This document shows, piece after piece, positions 14,075 to 23,176 of a stretch of DNA of 64,000 nt. Each line of letters starts with the position of its first letter. Positions within the stretch are counted from its first letter, which is position 1. The notes beneath the pieces are model-generated. The model saw only the letters and a list, made by a program, of their open reading frames with translations. It searched no databases and was not told the DNA's origin. Position numbers and translations under genes: made by a program. The DNA is from Jiangella sp. DSM 45060. Lineage in GTDB: Bacteria > Actinomycetota > Actinomycetes > Jiangellales > Jiangellaceae. Where the stretch lies: positions 868,001-932,000 of the forward strand of contig NZ_LT629771.1 in NCBI RefSeq assembly GCF_900105175.1, in the 5' to 3' direction.

Positions 14075-17000
14075 GTGGGGTGGAACAACCCGCCGATCCC
14101 GTGGGGTGAGCTGGAGCGCCGGTTGTCCGACCGGCCGACGGTGCCGCCCGAGGACGGCCCGGGGTCGCGCAAGCGCAAGCCGTACAAGCGCAAGGCCGAG
14201 GTGGTCCGGCCGGACGAGCCGGTCGTGCCGTACGCCGAGCTGCACGCGCACAGCAACTTCAGCTTCCTCGACGGCGCCAGCGGGCCGGACCGCCTGGTCG
14301 AGGCCGCCATCGAGCTGGGGCTGCACGGGCTGGCGCTGACCGACCACGACGGCTTCTACGGCGCGCCGCTGTTCGCCGAGATCGCCCAGAAGTACGCCGC
14401 CGAGAACCTGCGCACCATCTACGGCGCGGAGCTGTCGCTGGGCCTCGACGCGCCGCAGAACGGCGTCCCCGACCCCCGCGGGCAGCACCTGCTCGTGCTG
14501 GCCCGCGGCGTCGAGGGCTACCACCGGCTGGCCGGCGCCATCACCGACGCGCAGCTGAAGGGCGAGGAGAAGGGCAAGCCCGAGTACGACCTCGACACCC
14601 TCGCCGGCACCGGTCGCGGGCACTGGCTGGTGCTCACCGGCTGCCGCAAGGGCGCCGTCCGCTCCACCCTGGCCGGACGCGGACCGGCCGCTGCCGCCAC
14701 CGAGCTGGACCGGCTGACCACGCTGTTCGGCCGCGAGCACGTCGTCGTCGAGCTGTTCGACCACGGCCATCCCAGCGACGACGACGTCAACCGGCTGCTG
14801 GCCGGCCTCGCCGCCGACCGCGGACTGCCCGTCGTCGCCACCAACAACGTCCACTACGCCGACCCCGGCGACCACCGGCTGGCCTCGGCCATGGCGGCCA
14901 TCCGGGCCCGGCGCAGCCTCACCGAGATGAACGGCTGGCTGCCGGCGTGGGGCGCGGCGTCGCTGCGCACCGGACGCGAGATGGCCGACCGGTTCGCCGG
15001 CTACCCGGGCGCCGTCGCGCGCTCCGTCGAGCTGGCCGGCGAGCTCGCGTTCGACCTGCACAAGGCCAGCCCGCGCCTGCCGAAGGAACACATCCCTGAC
15101 GGCCACACCGCGATGAGCTGGCTGCGCATCCTGGTCGACCGCGGCTTCCAGCGCTACTACCGCGGCGTGAAGCACGAGCGGGCGGCCCGCGAGCGCGTCG
15201 ACTACGAGCTGGAGATCATCGACAAGAAGGACTTCGCCGGCTACTTCGTCATCGTCCACGACATCGTGGCGTTCGCCCGCGACGAAGGCATCCTCTGCCA
15301 GGGACGGGGCTCGGCGGCCAGCTCGGCGGTCTGTTACGCGCTCGGCGTCACCGCCATCGACCCTGTCTTCCACGACCTGCCGTTCGAGCGGTTCATCTCC
15401 GTCAACCGCGACGAAGAGCCCGACATCGACGTCGACTTCGACTCCGACCGGCGCGAAGAGGTCATCCAGAAGGTCTACGAGTGGTACGGCCGGCGCAACG
15501 CCGCCCAGGTCGCCAACGTCATCAGCTACCGGCCGAAGATGGCAGTCCGCGACGCCGCCAAGGCGCTGGGCTACTCGCCGGGACAGCAGGACGCGTGGTC
15601 GAAGCAGACCGACAGCTGGTCCGCGGTCGCCGGTCAGGACGTCGCCGACCACGAGATCCCCGGGCCCGTCGTCGACCTCGCCAACCAGCTCATGCGCGCG
15701 CCGCGGCACCTGGGCATCCACTCCGGCGGCATGGTCCTGACCGAGCGGCCGATCGGCCAGGTGTGCCCCATCGAGTGGGCGCGCATGGAGAACCGCACCG
15801 TCCTGCAGTGGGACAAGGACGCCTGCGAGTCGATGGGGCTGGTCAAGTTCGACCTGCTCGGCCTGGGCATGCTGAGCGCGCTCAACCACGCGTTCACCAT
15901 GATCGCCGGGCACCTCGGCGAGGCGTGGGAGCTGCAGAGCGTCCCCAAGGAGGAGCCGGCGGTCTACGACATGCTCTGCCGGGGCGACTCCATCGGCGTG
16001 TTCCAGGTCGAGAGCCGGGCCCAGATCGGGACGCTGCCGCGGCTGCGGCCGCGCAAGTTCTACGACCTCGCCATCGAGATCGCGCTGATCCGCCCCGGCC
16101 CGATCCAGGGCGGCGCCGTCCATCCGTACATCCGCCGCGCCACCGGCAAGGAGGAGGCCACCTATGTGCACGACGACCTGAAGCCGGTGCTGGAGCGGAC
16201 CCTCGGCGTGCCGCTGTTCCAGGAACAGCTCATGGGCATGGCCATGGCCGTCGGCGACTGCACCCCCGACGACGCCGACCTGCTGCGCCGGGCCATGGGC
16301 TCCAAGCGCGGCATCGAGCGCATCGAGAGCATCAAGGAGAAGCTGTACAAGGGCATGGCCAGGCGCGGCATCACCGGCCCCGATGCCGACCAGCTCTACG
16401 CCAAGATCCTCTCGTTCGCGAACTTCGGCTTCGCCGAGAGCCACGCGCTGTCCTTCGCCAAGCTCGTCTACGTCAGCTCGTGGCTCAAGCTGCACTACCC
16501 GGCGGCGTTCCTGGCCGCGCTGCTGCGGGCCCAGCCGATGGGGTTCTACTCGGCGCAGTCGCTGGTCCACGACGCCCGGCGGCACGGCGTGCGGGTGCTG
16601 CGCCCCGACATCGCGTCCTCCGGCGCCGTCGCCGGTCTCGAGCCCGACGGCGACGCCCGGCCGGGCAGGCTGGCCGAGTGCCTGCGCCCGGAGCACGAGG
16701 TCGCCGAGTGGGTCCCGGGCACTCCCGACCCGACGCCGCGGCACCGCCGCGACACCGGCTTCGCGGTCCGGCTCGGCCTCGACTCCGTCCGGGGCATCAG
16801 CAAGGACGTCGCCGAGGCCATCGTCGAGGCCCGCGAGGAGCGGCCGTTCCGCGACCCCACCGACCTCTCCCGCCGGGCCGCCCTCGACGCCCGGCAGCTG
16901 GAGGCGCTGGCCACCGCGGGCGCGTTCGACGGTTTCGGCCTCACCCGCCGCGAGGCGCTGTGGAACGCCGGCTACGTCGAGACCGCCGGTCAGCTGGAGG

Positions 17001-17479
17001 CCGTCACCGCCACTCCCGCGCCGCCGGCGCTGCCGGGGATGAGCGACGTCGAGCTGACCCTGGCCGACCTGTGGGCCACCTCGATCTCACCCACCGGCCA
17101 CCCCATCGCGCACCTGCGGCCGCTGCTGCGCAGCGAGGGCATCCTCGCCGTCGAGGACCTCGCGACCGCCGAGCCGAACCGCCGGGTCACCGTCGCCGGG
17201 GTGGTGACGCACCGGCAGCGGCCCGGCACCGCGGGCGGCATCACGTTCCTCAACATCGAGGACGAGACCGGCATGCTCAACGTCGTCTGCGGCGGCGGGC
17301 TGTGGCAGCGGCACCGGCGGGTGGCCCGCAACGCCGCGTGCATGATCGTCCGCGGCATGCTGGAGCGCAAGGACGGCGTCATCAACCTGGTCGCCGACCG
17401 GCTGGCGTCGCTGGAGGAGCTGCACCCCGAGGCCGCCCGCGCCCTGCACGCCCGCCACCGCTCCCGCGACTTCCACTGA
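14075..17479 (+). CDS. dnaE2: DnaE2, error-prone DNA polymerase III alpha-type subunit
   Basis: A 1134-aa C-family polymerase. The N-terminal PHP domain shows ELHAHSNFSFLDGAS and ALTDHDGF. The palm motifs include GRGSAASSAVCYALGVTAIDP and the catalytic aspartates in PDIDVDFDSDRR. FGFAESHALSFAKLVY belongs to the fingers/tandem-HhH region, and an OB fold with VTVAGVVTHRQRPGTAGGITFLNIEDETG ends the protein. The length and lack of a C-terminal tau-binding domain fit DnaE2 rather than DnaE1. It performs translesion synthesis with ImuA' and ImuB. GTG 14075 has a GAGGGGA ribosome site at about 14062. Confidence 0.96.
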   Translation: MGWNNPPIPWGELERRLSDRPTVPPEDGPGSRKRKPYKRKAEVVRPDEPVVPYAELHAHSNFSFLDGASGPDRLVEAAIELGLHGLALTDHDGFYGAPLFAEIAQKYAAENLRTIYGAELSLGLDAPQNGVPDPRGQHLLVLARGVEGYHRLAGAITDAQLKGEEKGKPEYDLDTLAGTGRGHWLVLTGCRKGAVRSTLAGRGPAAAATELDRLTTLFGREHVVVELFDHGHPSDDDVNRLLAGLAADRGLPVVATNNVHYADPGDHRLASAMAAIRARRSLTEMNGWLPAWGAASLRTGREMADRFAGYPGAVARSVELAGELAFDLHKASPRLPKEHIPDGHTAMSWLRILVDRGFQRYYRGVKHERAARERVDYELEIIDKKDFAGYFVIVHDIVAFARDEGILCQGRGSAASSAVCYALGVTAIDPVFHDLPFERFISVNRDEEPDIDVDFDSDRREEVIQKVYEWYGRRNAAQVANVISYRPKMAVRDAAKALGYSPGQQDAWSKQTDSWSAVAGQDVADHEIPGPVVDLANQLMRAPRHLGIHSGGMVLTERPIGQVCPIEWARMENRTVLQWDKDACESMGLVKFDLLGLGMLSALNHAFTMIAGHLGEAWELQSVPKEEPAVYDMLCRGDSIGVFQVESRAQIGTLPRLRPRKFYDLAIEIALIRPGPIQGGAVHPYIRRATGKEEATYVHDDLKPVLERTLGVPLFQEQLMGMAMAVGDCTPDDADLLRRAMGSKRGIERIESIKEKLYKGMARRGITGPDADQLYAKILSFANFGFAESHALSFAKLVYVSSWLKLHYPAAFLAALLRAQPMGFYSAQSLVHDARRHGVRVLRPDIASSGAVAGLEPDGDARPGRLAECLRPEHEVAEWVPGTPDPTPRHRRDTGFAVRLGLDSVRGISKDVAEAIVEAREERPFRDPTDLSRRAALDARQLEALATAGAFDGFGLTRREALWNAGYVETAGQLEAVTATPAPPALPGMSDVELTLADLWATSISPTGHPIAHLRPLLRSEGILAVEDLATAEPNRRVTVAGVVTHRQRPGTAGGITFLNIEDETGMLNVVCGGGLWQRHRRVARNAACMIVRGMLERKDGVINLVADRLASLEELHPEAARALHARHRSRDFH

Positions 17480-17485
17480 CCCGCG

Positions 17486-18490
17486 TCAGCCGGCGGTCCA
17501 GTCGACCAGCACGCCGACGACTGAACGGTCCCCGTCGCCCAGCCGGCCGTACAGCCCCGGCAGGTCGCCCGGCGCGATGCGGTCGGTGACCACGGGTGCC
17601 AGCGACAGCCGCCCCCGCGCGACGCTCTCGAGGAGGTACCGCACCGAGCGCTGGACCGACCATCCGCCCGCTTCGACGTCGTCCGCGTCCCGCCACGGAT
17701 GGTTGGCGCAGCCGACGACCCGGATGCCGTCGTAGTGGAACCTCGCCGGGAAGCTCAGCAGCTGCCGATGCAGCGCGGCGCCGGTCCGCGCGTCCGGCAG
17801 GTCGCGGTACACGCCGAGCACCGCGATGCGGCTGCCGCGCCGGCACACGCGGGCGGCGGTGTCGAGCCCTCGCCAGCTCCCGCTCGTCTCGACCACGAGG
17901 TCGACGCCCTCGGGCGAGACGCGCCGCACGTCGCCGGCCAGAGCCGAATCGCGCCCGTCCCACGTGGGCAGGCCGAGGCCGGCGGCGAACCGGAGACGGT
18001 GGTCGTCGGCGTCGATCGCGTGCGTCCGGGCGCCGCACGCCGTCGCCACCAGCGCCGCGCACAGCCCGACGACACCCAGCCCGACGACCGCCACGTTCTC
18101 GCCGGCCGCGTACTCGCCGGCGTGCAGGCAGTACAGCCCGAGGCTGGCGAGGTAGCACAGGACCGCCTCGTCGAAGGGCACCTCGTCGGGCACCGGGACG
18201 ACGCGGTGCGCGGGCACGATCGCCGCGTCGCCGTGCGGGGCCGCCGCGAAGACGCGGTCGCCGGGACGGACCGAGGCGACGCCCGCGCCCGTCTCGAGCA
18301 CCCGGCCGGCCGCGAGGTAGCCGGGCTCGTCCATGAAGCCACTCGGCCCGGACCGGTACGCGTGCAGCTCGCTGCCGGCGCTGACGGCCGTGAGCTCGAC
18401 GCCCACCAGCACCTCGCCGGCGCCTGGCCGGGGCGTCTCGGTCTCGCGCAGCTCCAGCCGCCGCTCGCCGGTGATCGTCCATCGCCTCAT
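17486..18490 (-). CDS. Medium-chain dehydrogenase/reductase, zinc alcohol dehydrogenase-like
   Basis: A 334-aa MDR-superfamily protein. The N-terminal GroES-like domain (about 1-110) contains RPGDRVFAAAPHGDAAIVPA. The Rossmann domain begins at NVAVVGLGVVGLCAAL, with ID in the second strand suggesting NAD(H) use. The four-Cys structural zinc lobe is missing and the usual GHE zinc motif reads PGYLAAGRV, so it resembles the atypical sugar-alcohol or bacteriochlorophyllide-type MDR group. The substrate is unknown. It ends 7 bp from dnaE2 in convergent orientation and has no obvious partner gene. Confidence 0.82.
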   Translation of the reverse strand: MRRWTITGERRLELRETETPRPGAGEVLVGVELTAVSAGSELHAYRSGPSGFMDEPGYLAAGRVLETGAGVASVRPGDRVFAAAPHGDAAIVPAHRVVPVPDEVPFDEAVLCYLASLGLYCLHAGEYAAGENVAVVGLGVVGLCAALVATACGARTHAIDADDHRLRFAAGLGLPTWDGRDSALAGDVRRVSPEGVDLVVETSGSWRGLDTAARVCRRGSRIAVLGVYRDLPDARTGAALHRQLLSFPARFHYDGIRVVGCANHPWRDADDVEAGGWSVQRSVRYLLESVARGRLSLAPVVTDRIAPGDLPGLYGRLGDGDRSVVGVLVDWTAG

Positions 18491-18535: not shown

Positions 18536-18541
18536 TAGCGT
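18536..18541 (+). promoter_or_regulatory. -10 box TAGCGT of a leaderless gene
   Basis: TAGCGT ends 6 nt before GTG 18548 of the hydrolase-phosphotransferase fusion. This supports the GTG start. Confidence 0.5.
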
Positions 18542-18547
18542 CGGGGC

Positions 18548-20191
18548 GTGCCTGTCTACCGCGCCGACGACGCCACGACGCTGCACTACGACGAGCTGGC
18601 CGGGGCGGCCGCCGCGGGCCCGCCGATCGTCGTCCTCGCCGGGGGAGCGGCCCGGCACCCGGTGTACCTGGGCGATCTCGCCGGGCTGGCCGAGCGGCAC
18701 CCGCTGGTGATCCCGCACCTGCGCGGCGTCGGGGCGTCACCGGCGCCGGACGAGCCGGAGGCGGGCTCGTACTGGCGGCAGGCCGACGACGTCGAGGCGC
18801 TGCGCCGGCACCTCGGGCACGACCGCCTGCTGGTCGCCGGGCACTCCGCCGGCACCCGGCTGGCCGTCGCGTATGCCGTCCAGCATCCGGAGCGGGTCGC
18901 CGCGCTGCTGCTGGTCACGCCGCCGTCGACGCACCTGGTCGAGGTGGCGCCGGACACCGCGGCGATCGCCGCCCGCCGCACCGACGACGCGTTCACCCAG
19001 GCATGGGCGGCGCTGCAGGCCGCCCCGTCCGAGCTCGACGACGACGGGTTCGGCGACTGGCAGCGCCGGGTCGCGCCGGCCGGCTACGCGCACTGGGGCC
19101 CGGCCGAGCGGGAGCACGCGACGCAGGGCGGCTGGGACCTCGCCGCCGGCCGCGCCTACTTCAGCGTCGACCCGCCCGCCGACCTCGCCGCGCGGCTCGC
19201 GTCCGTCACGGCGCCGGTCCTCGTGGTCGCGGGCGCCGACGACGCCCTGACGGGGTTCGCGCCGGTCGCGGCGCTGGCCGAGCGGTTCCCGTCCGGCCGC
19301 GTGGCCGTCGTCGAGGACTGCGGCCACTACCCGTGGGTCGAGCGGCCGGCCGAGTTCCGCGCCGCCGTCGACGCGTTCCTGGACGACGTCGTCGAGGTGC
19401 CGCTGGTGGGCGGCGACGTCAGTGACGGCGTCGTCCGCGTCGGCGGGACGGTCCGGCGGCACCCGGGGCGCGCCGCGGCCGCCGTCCACGCCTACCTGCG
19501 GCACCTGGAGGCGGCCGGCTTCCCGTACGCGCCGCGATTCCTCGGGTTCGACGACCGCGGCCGCGAGATCCTCACCTTCCTCGACGGCGAGATGGGCGGG
19601 CGGCCGCTGGCGCCGTGGGCCGTCACCGAGGACGCGCTGCGCGAGATCGCCGTCATCCAGCGCCGCCTGCACGACGCCGCCGCCGGCTTCACGCCGCCCG
19701 ACGGCGTCGGCTGGCCGGTGGGCGTCGAGCTGCCCGGCGTGCCGTCGCTGTTCGACGCCCCGGACGTCGTCGGGCACAACGACATCACCTTCGAGAACAC
19801 GATCTTCGTCGACGGGCGGCCGGCCGGCATCATCGACTTCGACCTCGCCGGGCCCACCACCCGGCTGCTCGACGTCATCACGACGCTGCGGCACTGGGCG
19901 CCGATGGCCGCTCCGGCCGACCGCGACCCCGCCCTGCGCGACGCCGACGCCGGCCGGCGCATGCGCATCTTCGTCGACGCCTACGGACTCGACGACGACC
20001 GTCGCGCCGCACTCCTCGACGTCGCCGACCGCCGCTACACCCGCGTCTGGCACGTCATGAAGTACCGCGCCGAGACCGACGGCGGCGGCTGGGCCCGCAT
20101 GTGGGAGGGCGGCGCCGGCGACGCCATCAAGCGGGCGCACGACTGGTTCCGCGCCGAGCGCGACACGCTGGCCGCGGCGCTCACCGGCTGA
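18548..20191 (+). CDS. Fusion of alpha/beta hydrolase and APH-type phosphotransferase
   Basis: A 547-aa two-domain protein in one uninterrupted frame. Residues 1-280 are an alpha/beta hydrolase: nucleophile Ser in [11 protein letters not shown], Asp in [10 protein letters not shown], His in [11 protein letters not shown]. From about 285 ([21 protein letters not shown]) an aminoglycoside-phosphotransferase-like kinase domain follows, with the catalytic loop [13 protein letters not shown] (HxDxxxxN) and metal-binding GIIDFDLAG. The two domains meet with almost no linker, and GTG codons near 19,400 could start the second domain alone. Hydrolysis plus phosphorylation of one small molecule is a reasonable guess; substrates are unknown. 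GTG 18548 follows a TAGCGT box. Confidence 0.87.
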
Positions 20192-20228
20192 TATCCGGGA
20201 CGTGCTCGGCGCGGCCCGCCGCGCCGTC

Positions 20229-20234
20229 TAGAGT
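20229..20234 (+). promoter_or_regulatory. -10 box TAGAGT of leaderless nucS
   Basis: TAGAGT ends 7 nt before GTG 20242 of nucS; no ribosome site is visible. Confidence 0.55.
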
Positions 20235-20241
20235 CGTGGCG

Positions 20242-20931
20242 GTGAGGATCGTCATCGCGCGCTGCCAGGTCGACTACGCCGGCCGGCTGACCGCCCACCT
20301 CCCGCTCGCGACCCGCGTCATCATGGTGAAGGCCGACGGCAGCGTGCTGGTCCACTCCGACGGCGGCTCGTACAAGCCACTGAACTGGATGAGCCCACCC
20401 TGCACGCTCACCGTCCGCGACCCCGAGCCGGACGAGGACGGCGTCGCCGCGGTGTGGACGGTGCAGAACGGCAAGACCGACGACCGCCTGGTGATCAGCC
20501 TGCACGAGGTCCTGCACGACTCCAACCACGACCTCGGCGTCGACCCCGGCCTGGTGAAGGACGGCGTCGAGGCGCACCTGCAGGTGCTGCTGGCCGAGCA
20601 GGTCGAGACGTTCGGGTCCGGCTGGCGGCTGGTGCGCCGCGAGTACCCGACGCCGATCGGCCCGGTCGACCTCCTCTGCCGCGACGAGCAGGGCGTCGCC
20701 GTCGCCGTCGAGGTGAAGCGGCGCGGCGAGATCGACGGCGTCGAGCAGCTCACCCGCTACCTCGACCTCCTCAACCGCGACCCGCTGCTCGCCCCGGTGC
20801 GCGGCGTGTTCGCGGCCCAGGAGATCAAGCCGCAGGCCCGCACGCTCGCCGTCGACCGCGGCATCACCTGCCTCACCGTCGACTACGACGCCCTCCGCGG
20901 CGTCGACGACCCCACGTCGCGGTTGTTCTGA
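20242..20931 (+). CDS. nucS: NucS (EndoMS) mismatch-specific endonuclease
   Basis: A 229-aa protein close in length to mycobacterial NucS. The N-terminal beta-rich DNA-binding domain ([40 protein letters not shown]) and the C-terminal PD-(D/E)xK nuclease domain are clear: GPVDLLCRD and [21 protein letters not shown] give the Asp and ExK. NucS with the beta clamp performs non-canonical mismatch repair in Actinobacteria that lack MutS/MutL. The start is GTG 20242 after the TAGAGT box. It lies only 2.8 kb from the mutagenic DnaE2 gene on the same strand. The 3' end converges on the WXG-type operon. Confidence 0.95.
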
Positions 20932-20940
20932 CCGCCGCCG

Positions 20941-22863
20941 TCAGGTCCGGCCCAGGAACGTCTGGGCGCCCTGCCAGCCACTGTCCCAGGCGTCGGTGCC
21001 GGCGTCGGCCATGTCGTCCAGGGCCGGGACGCTCTGGACCCACTCCATGAACTGCCGGCGCAGCTCCGGGTCGCCGTAGATCTGGTCCATCGGCAGCAGC
21101 TCTCCGTACTGTCCCTTGATCGCGTCCGGCGCGGAGTCCATGACGTGCGACTCGGGCGTGGAGCCGACACCGTTGCCGATCATCGCGTGCACCGTCATGT
21201 ACCAGCGCAGTTGTGCCGCGTCGGTGTTCTCGGCGATGACGGCGCCCTCGGTGTTCGTGCTGTTCGCCCACTGGTCGAGCTTCCCGCCGACCCCCTGGTG
21301 CAGCAGCCAGAAGCCGAGGCCGGGGGGCAGCACCGCGCCGGTCCCCTCGGTGAAGATCTTCGCGACGGCGCCCTTGCGGGCCTTCTCCCGCTCGTCGAAG
21401 TCGGCGGCGAACTCGCGCTGGCCCTCGAAGTACAGCGTGGCCGCGGCGCCGAACAGGCTCATGACGTCGTTCACCCGGTTGCCGCCGTCGGCCTTGTCGG
21501 CGGCGATCGCGTCGGCGAGGGAGCTGTTGTACAGCGACTCGACGGCGACCTCGAACGGCGCGGAGTACTCGATCTGGTCCTGGAAGCCGCCGAGGAAGCG
21601 GTGCACGGCGCGCGGGCTCAGGTAGAAGTCCGGGCTCAGGCCGGTGCCCTGGGGGAAGTCCGCCGGGACTCCCGTCATCGACGAGCCGCGGTCGCCGGGC
21701 ATCTCGCCGCCGTCGATGAACGAGCCGGCCACCAGCTCGTCGACGTACGCCGCCGCGATGCGGGCGGTCGAGTCCTTGATCGCCGGCGGGATCTGCTGGT
21801 GGTCGGCCGAGCCGGTGATGAACTCGAACGCCAGCGCCGCCTGCTCCGGCGTGTGCTCGGTGTTCGGCGGGTCGCCCTGCGAGCCCGTGGCGGCCTCGAT
21901 GGCCAGGCCGAAGCTGTCGGCCAGGTCGGCGCGCTGGGCCGGGTCGCCCGCCGCCGCGTAGACGCGGTGCGTCAGCTCCTTGGCCGAGATGTCCTGCTCG
22001 GACAGCACCTTCGTCGCCAGCCCGGGATAGCGGGCGAGGGTGTTGAAGGCCAGCGCGGTGATGTCCTCGGTCAGGCCGACCGCGGTGTCGCCGTCGCCGA
22101 GGGTCTTGGTCGAGATGTTGTTGGGGTCGGCCCAGTCCTTGTCGGAGAACGCGTCGAGCGCCGTCCCGTTCACGGTCTGCTCGACGAACGCCTGCTGGCC
22201 GGAGAAGTCGCCGTACTGCAACAGCGCCAGCCGGCCCCAGGCGACCTGCGGATCGTCCGTCGCCAGCCCGAACTCGCTGAACGCGCTCATGCCCTCGGGA
22301 GGGGTCTCGTCCATCATCGCGGTGCCCAGGCCGATGCTCAGCAGCTTCAGGTACTCCTGGGCGTTCTCGCCGACGCCGGACTCGGGCATGCCCATGGACG
22401 CGGCCAGCCGGGCCGCCATCTCCGGGCCGAGCTCGGCGTAGAACCCGGCCATCGCGTCCGGGTCGTACGCGATCTGCTCGAGCTCCTCCATCATGTCCGC
22501 GTCGACCTCGCCGGCCTCCTTGACCCGGGTGGCGAGGTCGCGGCCCTGCCGCTCGGCCAGCCCCGGCTCGAGGTCGGTCGTCGCGTTCTCCTCGATCTGC
22601 ACCATGGGCGCGTTCGGCTGCTGGTGCTGGATCGCCCGGGCGAGACCCAGCCGGCGCTGCGTCTCCTGCAGCGCCGACTCGACCCACTCGTGGACGACGG
22701 CGAGGTCGTCGAAGCCGGTCGACGTCACGTCCAGCCGGTTCATGTCCGCCCGGACCGATCGCTCCGTGGTGTAGCCGAGGAAGTCGTCCATCTCTCGCCG
22801 GGCGATCTGCAGCTTGGCGACGAGGTCCTCGAGGCCGGTCACCGAGACGGAGGAGAACGTCAT
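20941..22863 (-). CDS. Large WXG-operon protein, candidate type VII secretion substrate
   Basis: A 640-aa hydrophilic protein without signal peptide or membrane span. Its first 90 residues are predicted helical and rich in Arg/Glu/Leu ([19 protein letters not shown]), like the partner helices of WXG100 proteins. The rest is acidic, with many Asp/Glu/Ala/Gly, and has no recognised enzymatic motif. It resembles the WXG-associated DUF6571-type proteins of actinomycetes, although I cannot confirm this. The ATG overlaps the stop of the upstream WXG-like gene (ATGA), a layout typical of ESX substrate pairs. No secretion machinery is in the window. Confidence 0.7.
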
Positions 22864-23114
22864 GCCGGCGGCTCCTCCGCGGGGGCCGCGGACACGGCGG
22901 CGGCGATGTCCGCGACGATGGCGTCGGCGCCCTTCTGCAGGACGCTCTTGTGGATGTCGAGGGAGGTGCCGAAGCCGTCGGCGCGGGTCCCGGTCCACGC
23001 CTCGCCGGACGCCATGATCGACAGCGGCCCGTCGAGTGCCGCCTTGAGGTCGCCGATGATCCGGCCGACCTGGATCTGCAGTCGTTCGAGGTCGGCGCGC
23101 GTGGTGTCGTTCAC
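22860..23114 (-). CDS. WXG100-like small protein
   Basis: An 84-aa helical protein with the central turn [11 protein letters not shown], a W-x-G motif at about residues 40-42 between two amphipathic helices. This is the hallmark of ESAT-6/WXG100 proteins, which form helical hairpin dimers and leave the cell through type VII secretion. The length fits the family, but a C-terminal YxxxD/E signal is not seen, so the large downstream protein may carry the export signal of the pair. GTG 23114 is the only reasonable start. It is divergent from lpdA. Confidence 0.75.
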
Positions 23115-23176
23115 AACGTCCCAGTGAATACCGAGGTGGATTCACATCGGCTTCACGACTGCGTCATCGCAGGATC

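Follow-up and report, generated by a model that had tools for sequence, protein, structure and literature searches.

Proteins in which two small-molecule enzymes share one chain have been described before, and AAC(6')-Ie/APH(2'')-Ia, encoded by a mobile gene in which the partner of the kinase is an acetyltransferase, is the classic bifunctional fusion in antibiotic resistance. Kinases with the APH fold usually hold an ATP-anchoring lysine in the short third strand of the N-lobe. Small-molecule kinases also take part in cobamide biosynthesis: according to one paper (PMC6249242), CbiB couples aminopropanol phosphate to cobyric acid, aminopropanol phosphate derives from L-threonine via a kinase and a decarboxylase, and PduX and BluE are the L-threonine kinases demonstrated so far. 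In another (PMC6461909), annotations of pduX and cobD are described as missing in most verified cobamide producers.

The locus analyzed here, from Jiangella sp. DSM 45060, encodes an alpha/beta hydrolase and an APH-fold kinase in one reading frame (Table 1). The window, i.e., the whole 64,000-nucleotide stretch under analysis, is part of one 7.49 Mb contig. The frame ends in a TGA and is not interrupted by any stop, and the single protein matches both Abhydrolase_1 and APH above the curated Pfam cut-offs, which bears out the original prediction of a real single-frame fusion. The full-length AlphaFold model has a mean pLDDT of 79.8 and a pTM of 0.71. Among named organisms, other species of Jiangella come closest, J. 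muralis with 89% identity across the full length.

Table 1. Features of the fusion locus (window positions) and of the related cbiB-linked kinase loci.
Feature	Position	Strand	Basis or remark
Error-prone DNA polymerase (dnaE2-like), upstream neighbor	14075..17479	+	profile match, synteny
Zinc-type dehydrogenase, divergent neighbor	17486..18490	-	in G000, G005, G007
TAGCGT, -10-like box, 6 bases upstream of the GTG	18536..18541	+	suggests leaderless transcription
Fused CDS, alpha/beta hydrolase + APH-fold kinase	18548..20191	+	547 aa, GTG start
Hydrolase half, residues 1-279	18548..19384	+	Pfam, motifs, fold search
GHSAG nucleophile elbow (S100), residues 98-102	18839..18853	+	motif
DD 231-232, triad acid; D232 nearly invariant	19238..19243	+	motif
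GH 259-260, catalytic His	19322..19327	+	motif
Joint, hydrolase C-terminal helix directly into kinase N-terminus (10 residues)	19385..19414	+	alignment, model
Kinase half, residues 280-547	19385..20188	+	Pfam, alignment, fold search
TVRR (301-304), N-lobe strand; Arg in the usual Lys place (position tentative)	19448..19459	+	alignment, model
HNDITFEN catalytic loop (D412, N417), residues 410-417	19775..19798	+	motif
IIDFD metal-binding motif (D430, D432)	19829..19843	+	motif; DFD = residues 430-432
nucS, downstream neighbor	20242..20931	+	profile match, synteny
APH-fold kinase directly before cbiB	L102-L112, L114-L118, L082		17/17 loci

In the hydrolase half, the Abhydrolase_1 profile (PF00561) covers residues 25-266 with 88.8 bits against a cut-off of 25.8, and this score together with the conserved nucleophile, acid and histidine positions places it in the alpha/beta hydrolase superfamily; its top Foldseek ranks are esterases and an AHL lactonase. 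In the kinase half, the best stretch of the APH profile (PF01636) lies at residues 400-470 and scores 40.4 bits (Pfam cut-off 23.2), and H131, D133, N138, D151 and D153, in kinase-half numbering, are invariant in 14/14 aligned relatives. No lysine is seen in what appears to be the third strand of its N-lobe, where the alignment has R24 and R25 (same numbering) and the model is too weak to locate the site, and R304 of the full protein is invariant in all 14 relatives, fused and free. The original prediction had held both catalytic sets to be intact, which is shown for the hydrolase triad, the kinase catalytic loop and the metal site, but not for an ATP lysine. Given the invariant arginine in a strand where no lysine is seen, the kinase probably works through an atypical contact to the nucleotide. 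Its catalytic core is the least certain and most poorly modeled region, and a kinase-only model (pLDDT 68.1), which brought no improvement over the full-length one, matched choline kinases, amicoumacin kinase and APHs, the best PDB match having an E-value of 2.5e-3. Homoserine kinase families stayed below their NCBIfam cut-offs (thrB_alt, 12.6 vs 255.9 bits; PRK05231, 18.7 vs 271 bits). The kinase half is matched by PHROG 32649 at 9.8e-29; the 18 stretches of viral contigs matched by the kinase alignment included zero relatives, and phage records gave zero matches. Trifolitoxin immunity was set aside as a label for the kinase, as usable literature support was not found.

Twenty-two genomes of the family were searched, 12 of them from the same genus as the window, and the same domain order, which the original prediction had suggested looking for, was recovered as a full-length match without internal stop in 10 of these 12, the window included. 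The other nine fused genomes show 72-93% identity to the window; six named Jiangella loci (L009-L014) seem to duplicate genomes of this set and were counted once. The catalytic motifs are retained in all 10 fused members with minor variants, namely HNDLTFEN for HNDITFEN in two genomes and IVDFD in one, and, in one genome each, SGHY, CGHF, and GTDD, CADD, CTDD or GAED for GADD in the hydrolase. Among nine fused genomes (G014 was excluded, as dnaE2 is not on its fetched contig), median dN/dS by the Nei-Gojobori method was 0.384 for the hydrolase, 0.383 for the kinase, 0.285 for DnaE2 and 0.169 for NucS, and was below 1 in 36/36 pairs for each of the four genes. Both halves are under purifying selection, which is looser than that on the adjacent repair genes.

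The order dnaE2-fusion-nucS was observed wherever the flank was available, and the DNA repair neighbors look like bystanders. Other features of the neighborhood vary. The divergent dehydrogenase shares the upstream region of the fusion and is absent from the genus loci compared other than those listed in Table 1 (in G014 the contig ends there). In the window, 50 bases (20192-20241) separate the fusion from nucS, whereas in several relatives the interval is about 390 bases long and includes a short frame on the reverse strand with, by eye, one hydrophobic segment. Beyond nucS, a reverse-strand protein of 734 residues (20941-23145) gave zero Pfam or NCBIfam matches, and was itself matched in 7/11 loci of the genus, with a partial match at one more. 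The synteny marker "ORF477", for which there is no Pfam match, probably runs antisense to a gene resembling dihydrolipoamide dehydrogenase (by eye, L054), and the argument makes no use of it.

Two genomes of the genus depart from this arrangement. G007 encodes a 284-residue hydrolase that ends with a TAG exactly at the joint, and the DNA past this stop matches the post-kinase DNA of eight relatives at about 80-85%, from which we infer that its kinase half was deleted. The G007 hydrolase groups with those of G009 and G014 (95/93) among the fused members, G008 branching off outside them (97/96), a nesting that comes from the hydrolase tree alone, since the tree of DnaE2 and NucS is mostly unresolved; on this nesting, the loss of the kinase in G007 is secondary. 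The dN/dS of the G007 hydrolase is 0.26 against G009 and 0.24 against G014, so that change remains conservative, and the retention of a hydrolase alone under such conservative change indicates that it is independent of the kinase. In G011, neither half lies between dnaE2 and nucS, and as its sister in the DnaE2 and NucS tree (97/100) is the fusion-bearing G008, this absence looks like a loss too. Where the fusion would lie, G011 carries two short frames on the reverse strand, which by eye resemble an antitoxin and a small toxin (L072:3430-4374).

Outside the genus, the two halves were found as separate genes. In evenly drawn samples of the phylum (396 genomes) and the class (393 genomes), with E <= 1e-45 and scoring limited to three candidates in each genome, the genus of the window was the only one to give full-length matches (1/396 and 10/393, respectively). 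P. limicola has a free kinase in the same dnaE2-nucS place with 67% identity across the half and no hydrolase nearby, and dnaE2 and nucS are adjacent in G001 and G017 of the family. Free hydrolases occur in Kibdelosporangium (59%) and in Microbacterium, Agromyces and Citricoccus (40-45%). A kinase was found near a free hydrolase at one of 17 loci (14 distinct, L036-L038 being the same places as L076-L078), and this one, at L022, is a weak 50-residue match to a paralogue in a separate gene; a hydrolase was found near a free kinase at none of 20 loci (16 distinct, as four pairs overlap). At L087, outside the latter set, a hydrolase match of 33% lies about 2.5 kb away from the kinase, on the opposite strand. 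Judging from these gene neighborhoods, in which the free genes do not adjoin each other, the fusion does not descend from a widespread operon. We propose that the kinase was ancestrally a gene of its own in the dnaE2-nucS interval, the state seen in P. limicola, and that a hydrolase gene was inserted directly before it, the frames being joined before the sampled fused members of the genus diverged. Several further candidates for fusions were rejected, including the 540 aa frame of G482 and the long frames of G717, G664, G498, G470 and G456, in all of which the upstream extension does not match the other half, and G432, where the match with two stops covers the kinase only and a hydrolase match is absent.

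Leaderless transcription is known in actinomycetes. A TANNNT box lies 6-8 bases upstream of the start codon in 12/12 loci, comprising the 10 fused ones, G007 and the free Kibdelosporangium hydrolase, and the exact 6-base spacing occurs at 56 of 127,600 window positions on both strands. The box supports the start at 18548, and suggests that the fusion mRNA is leaderless.

We regard it as rather probable that the fusion is a genuine bifunctional enzyme, i.e., one polypeptide with a probably metabolic role. One mRNA, probably leaderless, would yield a polypeptide whose N-terminal half acts as an esterase/lactonase-type serine hydrolase (Ser100-Asp232-His260) and whose C-terminal half, a kinase of the APH/choline-kinase fold, transfers phosphate onto a hydroxyl of a small metabolite. 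Both halves would be catalytically active, the kinase substrate may be an amino acid, an amino alcohol or a similar primary metabolite, and the two reactions would lie on one route, with hydrolysis followed by phosphorylation. Against this reading stand the poorly modeled kinase core with its weak PDB match, the lack of a recognizable ATP lysine, and the hydrolase of G007, which does without the kinase; moreover, the two genes do not adjoin where they occur free, so that a shared pathway gains no independent support. The same separation of the free genes favors the alternative that two unrelated enzymes were joined by chance, each acting alone with the tether serving co-expression only, to which we assign somewhat less than an even chance; the loss of the kinase half from G007 with the hydrolase kept, and the tolerance of additional residues inserted at the joint in G008, point in the same direction. 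However, the retention of the fusion across most of the genus, with both halves constrained, disfavors a chance joining.

A more specific function, which we consider unlikely, is in the cobalamin linker: the kinase half would phosphorylate L-threonine or 1-amino-2-propanol toward the aminopropanol phosphate that CbiB uses, and the hydrolase would provide or edit the substrate of the kinase. This idea comes from the nearest large branch of free kinases, whose 17 loci all have the kinase directly before cbiB and form one clade (97/83); the kinases of Jiangella, P. limicola and G717 make up a clade beside it, not inside it. The 17 loci are from 16 genomes of the f90 family and one Nonomuraea record, the second copy in G672 not being included. 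Of the 19 f90 genomes with a match, 16 have the kinase directly before the CbiB gene, often with CobQ next (CbiB and CobQ were confirmed by Pfam at L097), and the remaining three (G584, G703, G741) have a more distant kinase copy alone (43-44%); a second copy in G680 (L113) shows no cbiB linkage. The Nonomuraea row nested among the f90 kinases suggests that f90 represents Streptosporangiaceae rather than Streptomycetaceae. For two members of the branch the best curated scores were to homoserine kinases, far below cut-off, and from these weak scores and the cbiB adjacency it is a fair guess that the cbiB-linked branch consists of amino-acid or amino-alcohol kinases.

The case for such a role is weaker for the Jiangella kinase, because the cob operon lies elsewhere and has a cobalamin riboswitch at the two Jiangella loci tested, such a riboswitch is absent from the window, and G007 and G011 have cob genes without the kinase. 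In favor of the role, a CbiB match was found in 11/12 genomes of the genus (one is a fragment below cut-off). In the cob operon of the genome analyzed here (L134:10809-12410), CobU and CobC of the threonine-phosphate decarboxylase type are in one frame, which G009, G011, G008, G007 and G014 match over both parts; this CobU-CobC fusion also counts in favor; no relative of the kinase was seen beside it. G007 and G011 retain CobU-CobC and CobT, and G001, G002, G016-G018, G020 and G021 have cbiB without a kinase of orthologue-level similarity. A joint loss of cbiB and the kinase in G007 was dropped as an argument, since the contig ends inside cobS and cbiB is likely merely unassembled. Still more doubtful is the wider proposal that the kinase lineage is an unrecognized cobamide L-threonine/1-amino-2-propanol kinase of some actinomycetes and that the Jiangella copy with its hydrolase is a new two-step salvage enzyme. 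Were it true, one chain would cleave an ester, amide or lactone to release a compound with a hydroxyl group and would then phosphorylate that compound. The cbiB-tied branch of APH-fold kinases is a candidate for the poorly annotated aminopropanol-linker step of cobamide synthesis, which is of more general interest than the fusion.

The original prediction of a detoxification or resistance enzyme found no support in the comparison with curated resistance families, all of which fell far below their NCBIfam cut-offs, both for macrolide esterases (mleBRB, 22.0 vs 585 bits; mleBCA, 19.6 vs 570 bits) and for aminoglycoside APH(3') families (14.5 vs 625 bits for APH(3')-Ia; 11.3 vs 400 bits). An antibiotic-inactivating bifunctional enzyme, e.g., a macrolide esterase joined to a phosphotransferase, is thus improbable, even though known resistance enzymes are built from domains of these types and a macrolide esterase appears at rank 46 of the hydrolase fold search. 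The gene is chromosomal, genus-wide and flanked by DNA repair genes, and among the 188 matching plasmid records of 72,556 none contained 80% of the query at a single site.

Lower still is the probability that the kinase is additionally made alone from an internal GTG. GTG codons do occur at the joint in the window, as had been pointed out, but a start codon there is not conserved: ATG, GTG and TTG are all absent from the joint stretch in 6/10 fused genes, and the codon following the joint Glu is ATC, GTC or ACC in 8/10. A separately made kinase is therefore unlikely; in the full-length model, hydrolase helix 267-281 continues directly into the kinase. That a sequencing or assembly error fused two genes, which a stop among relatives was expected to betray, has practically no probability left, as a stop at the joint occurs in just one relative, G007, which is without the entire kinase half and continues past the stop with the sequence found downstream of the kinase in its relatives, and as the agreement of 10 genomes on one frame rules out such an origin.

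The fusion combines two well-known families and, across the genomes sampled, is restricted to one genus of soil bacteria and selectively maintained; no report of the hydrolase-kinase combination was found in the open-access papers searched. G007 (kinase deletion), P. limicola (free kinase in the same place) and Kibdelosporangium (free hydrolase) provide natural controls. Among described proteins, the esterase Est816 (PDB 5egn), an alpha/beta hydrolase, is the best solved match to the hydrolase half by sequence and fold, and the Ser-Asp-His triad is common to both; fold-match identity to such esterases is at most 25%, and the C-terminal kinase sets the fusion apart from them. With the APH family (PF01636), including choline kinase, AmiN and APH(3'), the kinase half has the H-x-D-x4-N loop and D-x-D in common, whereas it differs from the solved members in its short N-lobe, an Arg for the usual Lys, the absence of an equivalog and an identity of only about 10-18%. 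The Methanosarcina mazei protein MM2060, a kinase/decarboxylase of cobamide synthesis according to the title of a reference cited in PMC6461909, is also bifunctional with a small-molecule kinase, but the partner of the kinase is a decarboxylase in MM2060 and a hydrolase in Jiangella. Like the Jiangella fusion, AAC(6')-Ie/APH(2'')-Ia is a single chain of two small-molecule enzymes, the C-terminal one an APH-fold kinase, and its kinase half is among the fold matches of the Jiangella kinase half; in contrast to that product of a mobile gene with its acetyltransferase, the Jiangella fusion has a hydrolase as partner, is chromosomal and carries no resistance signal.
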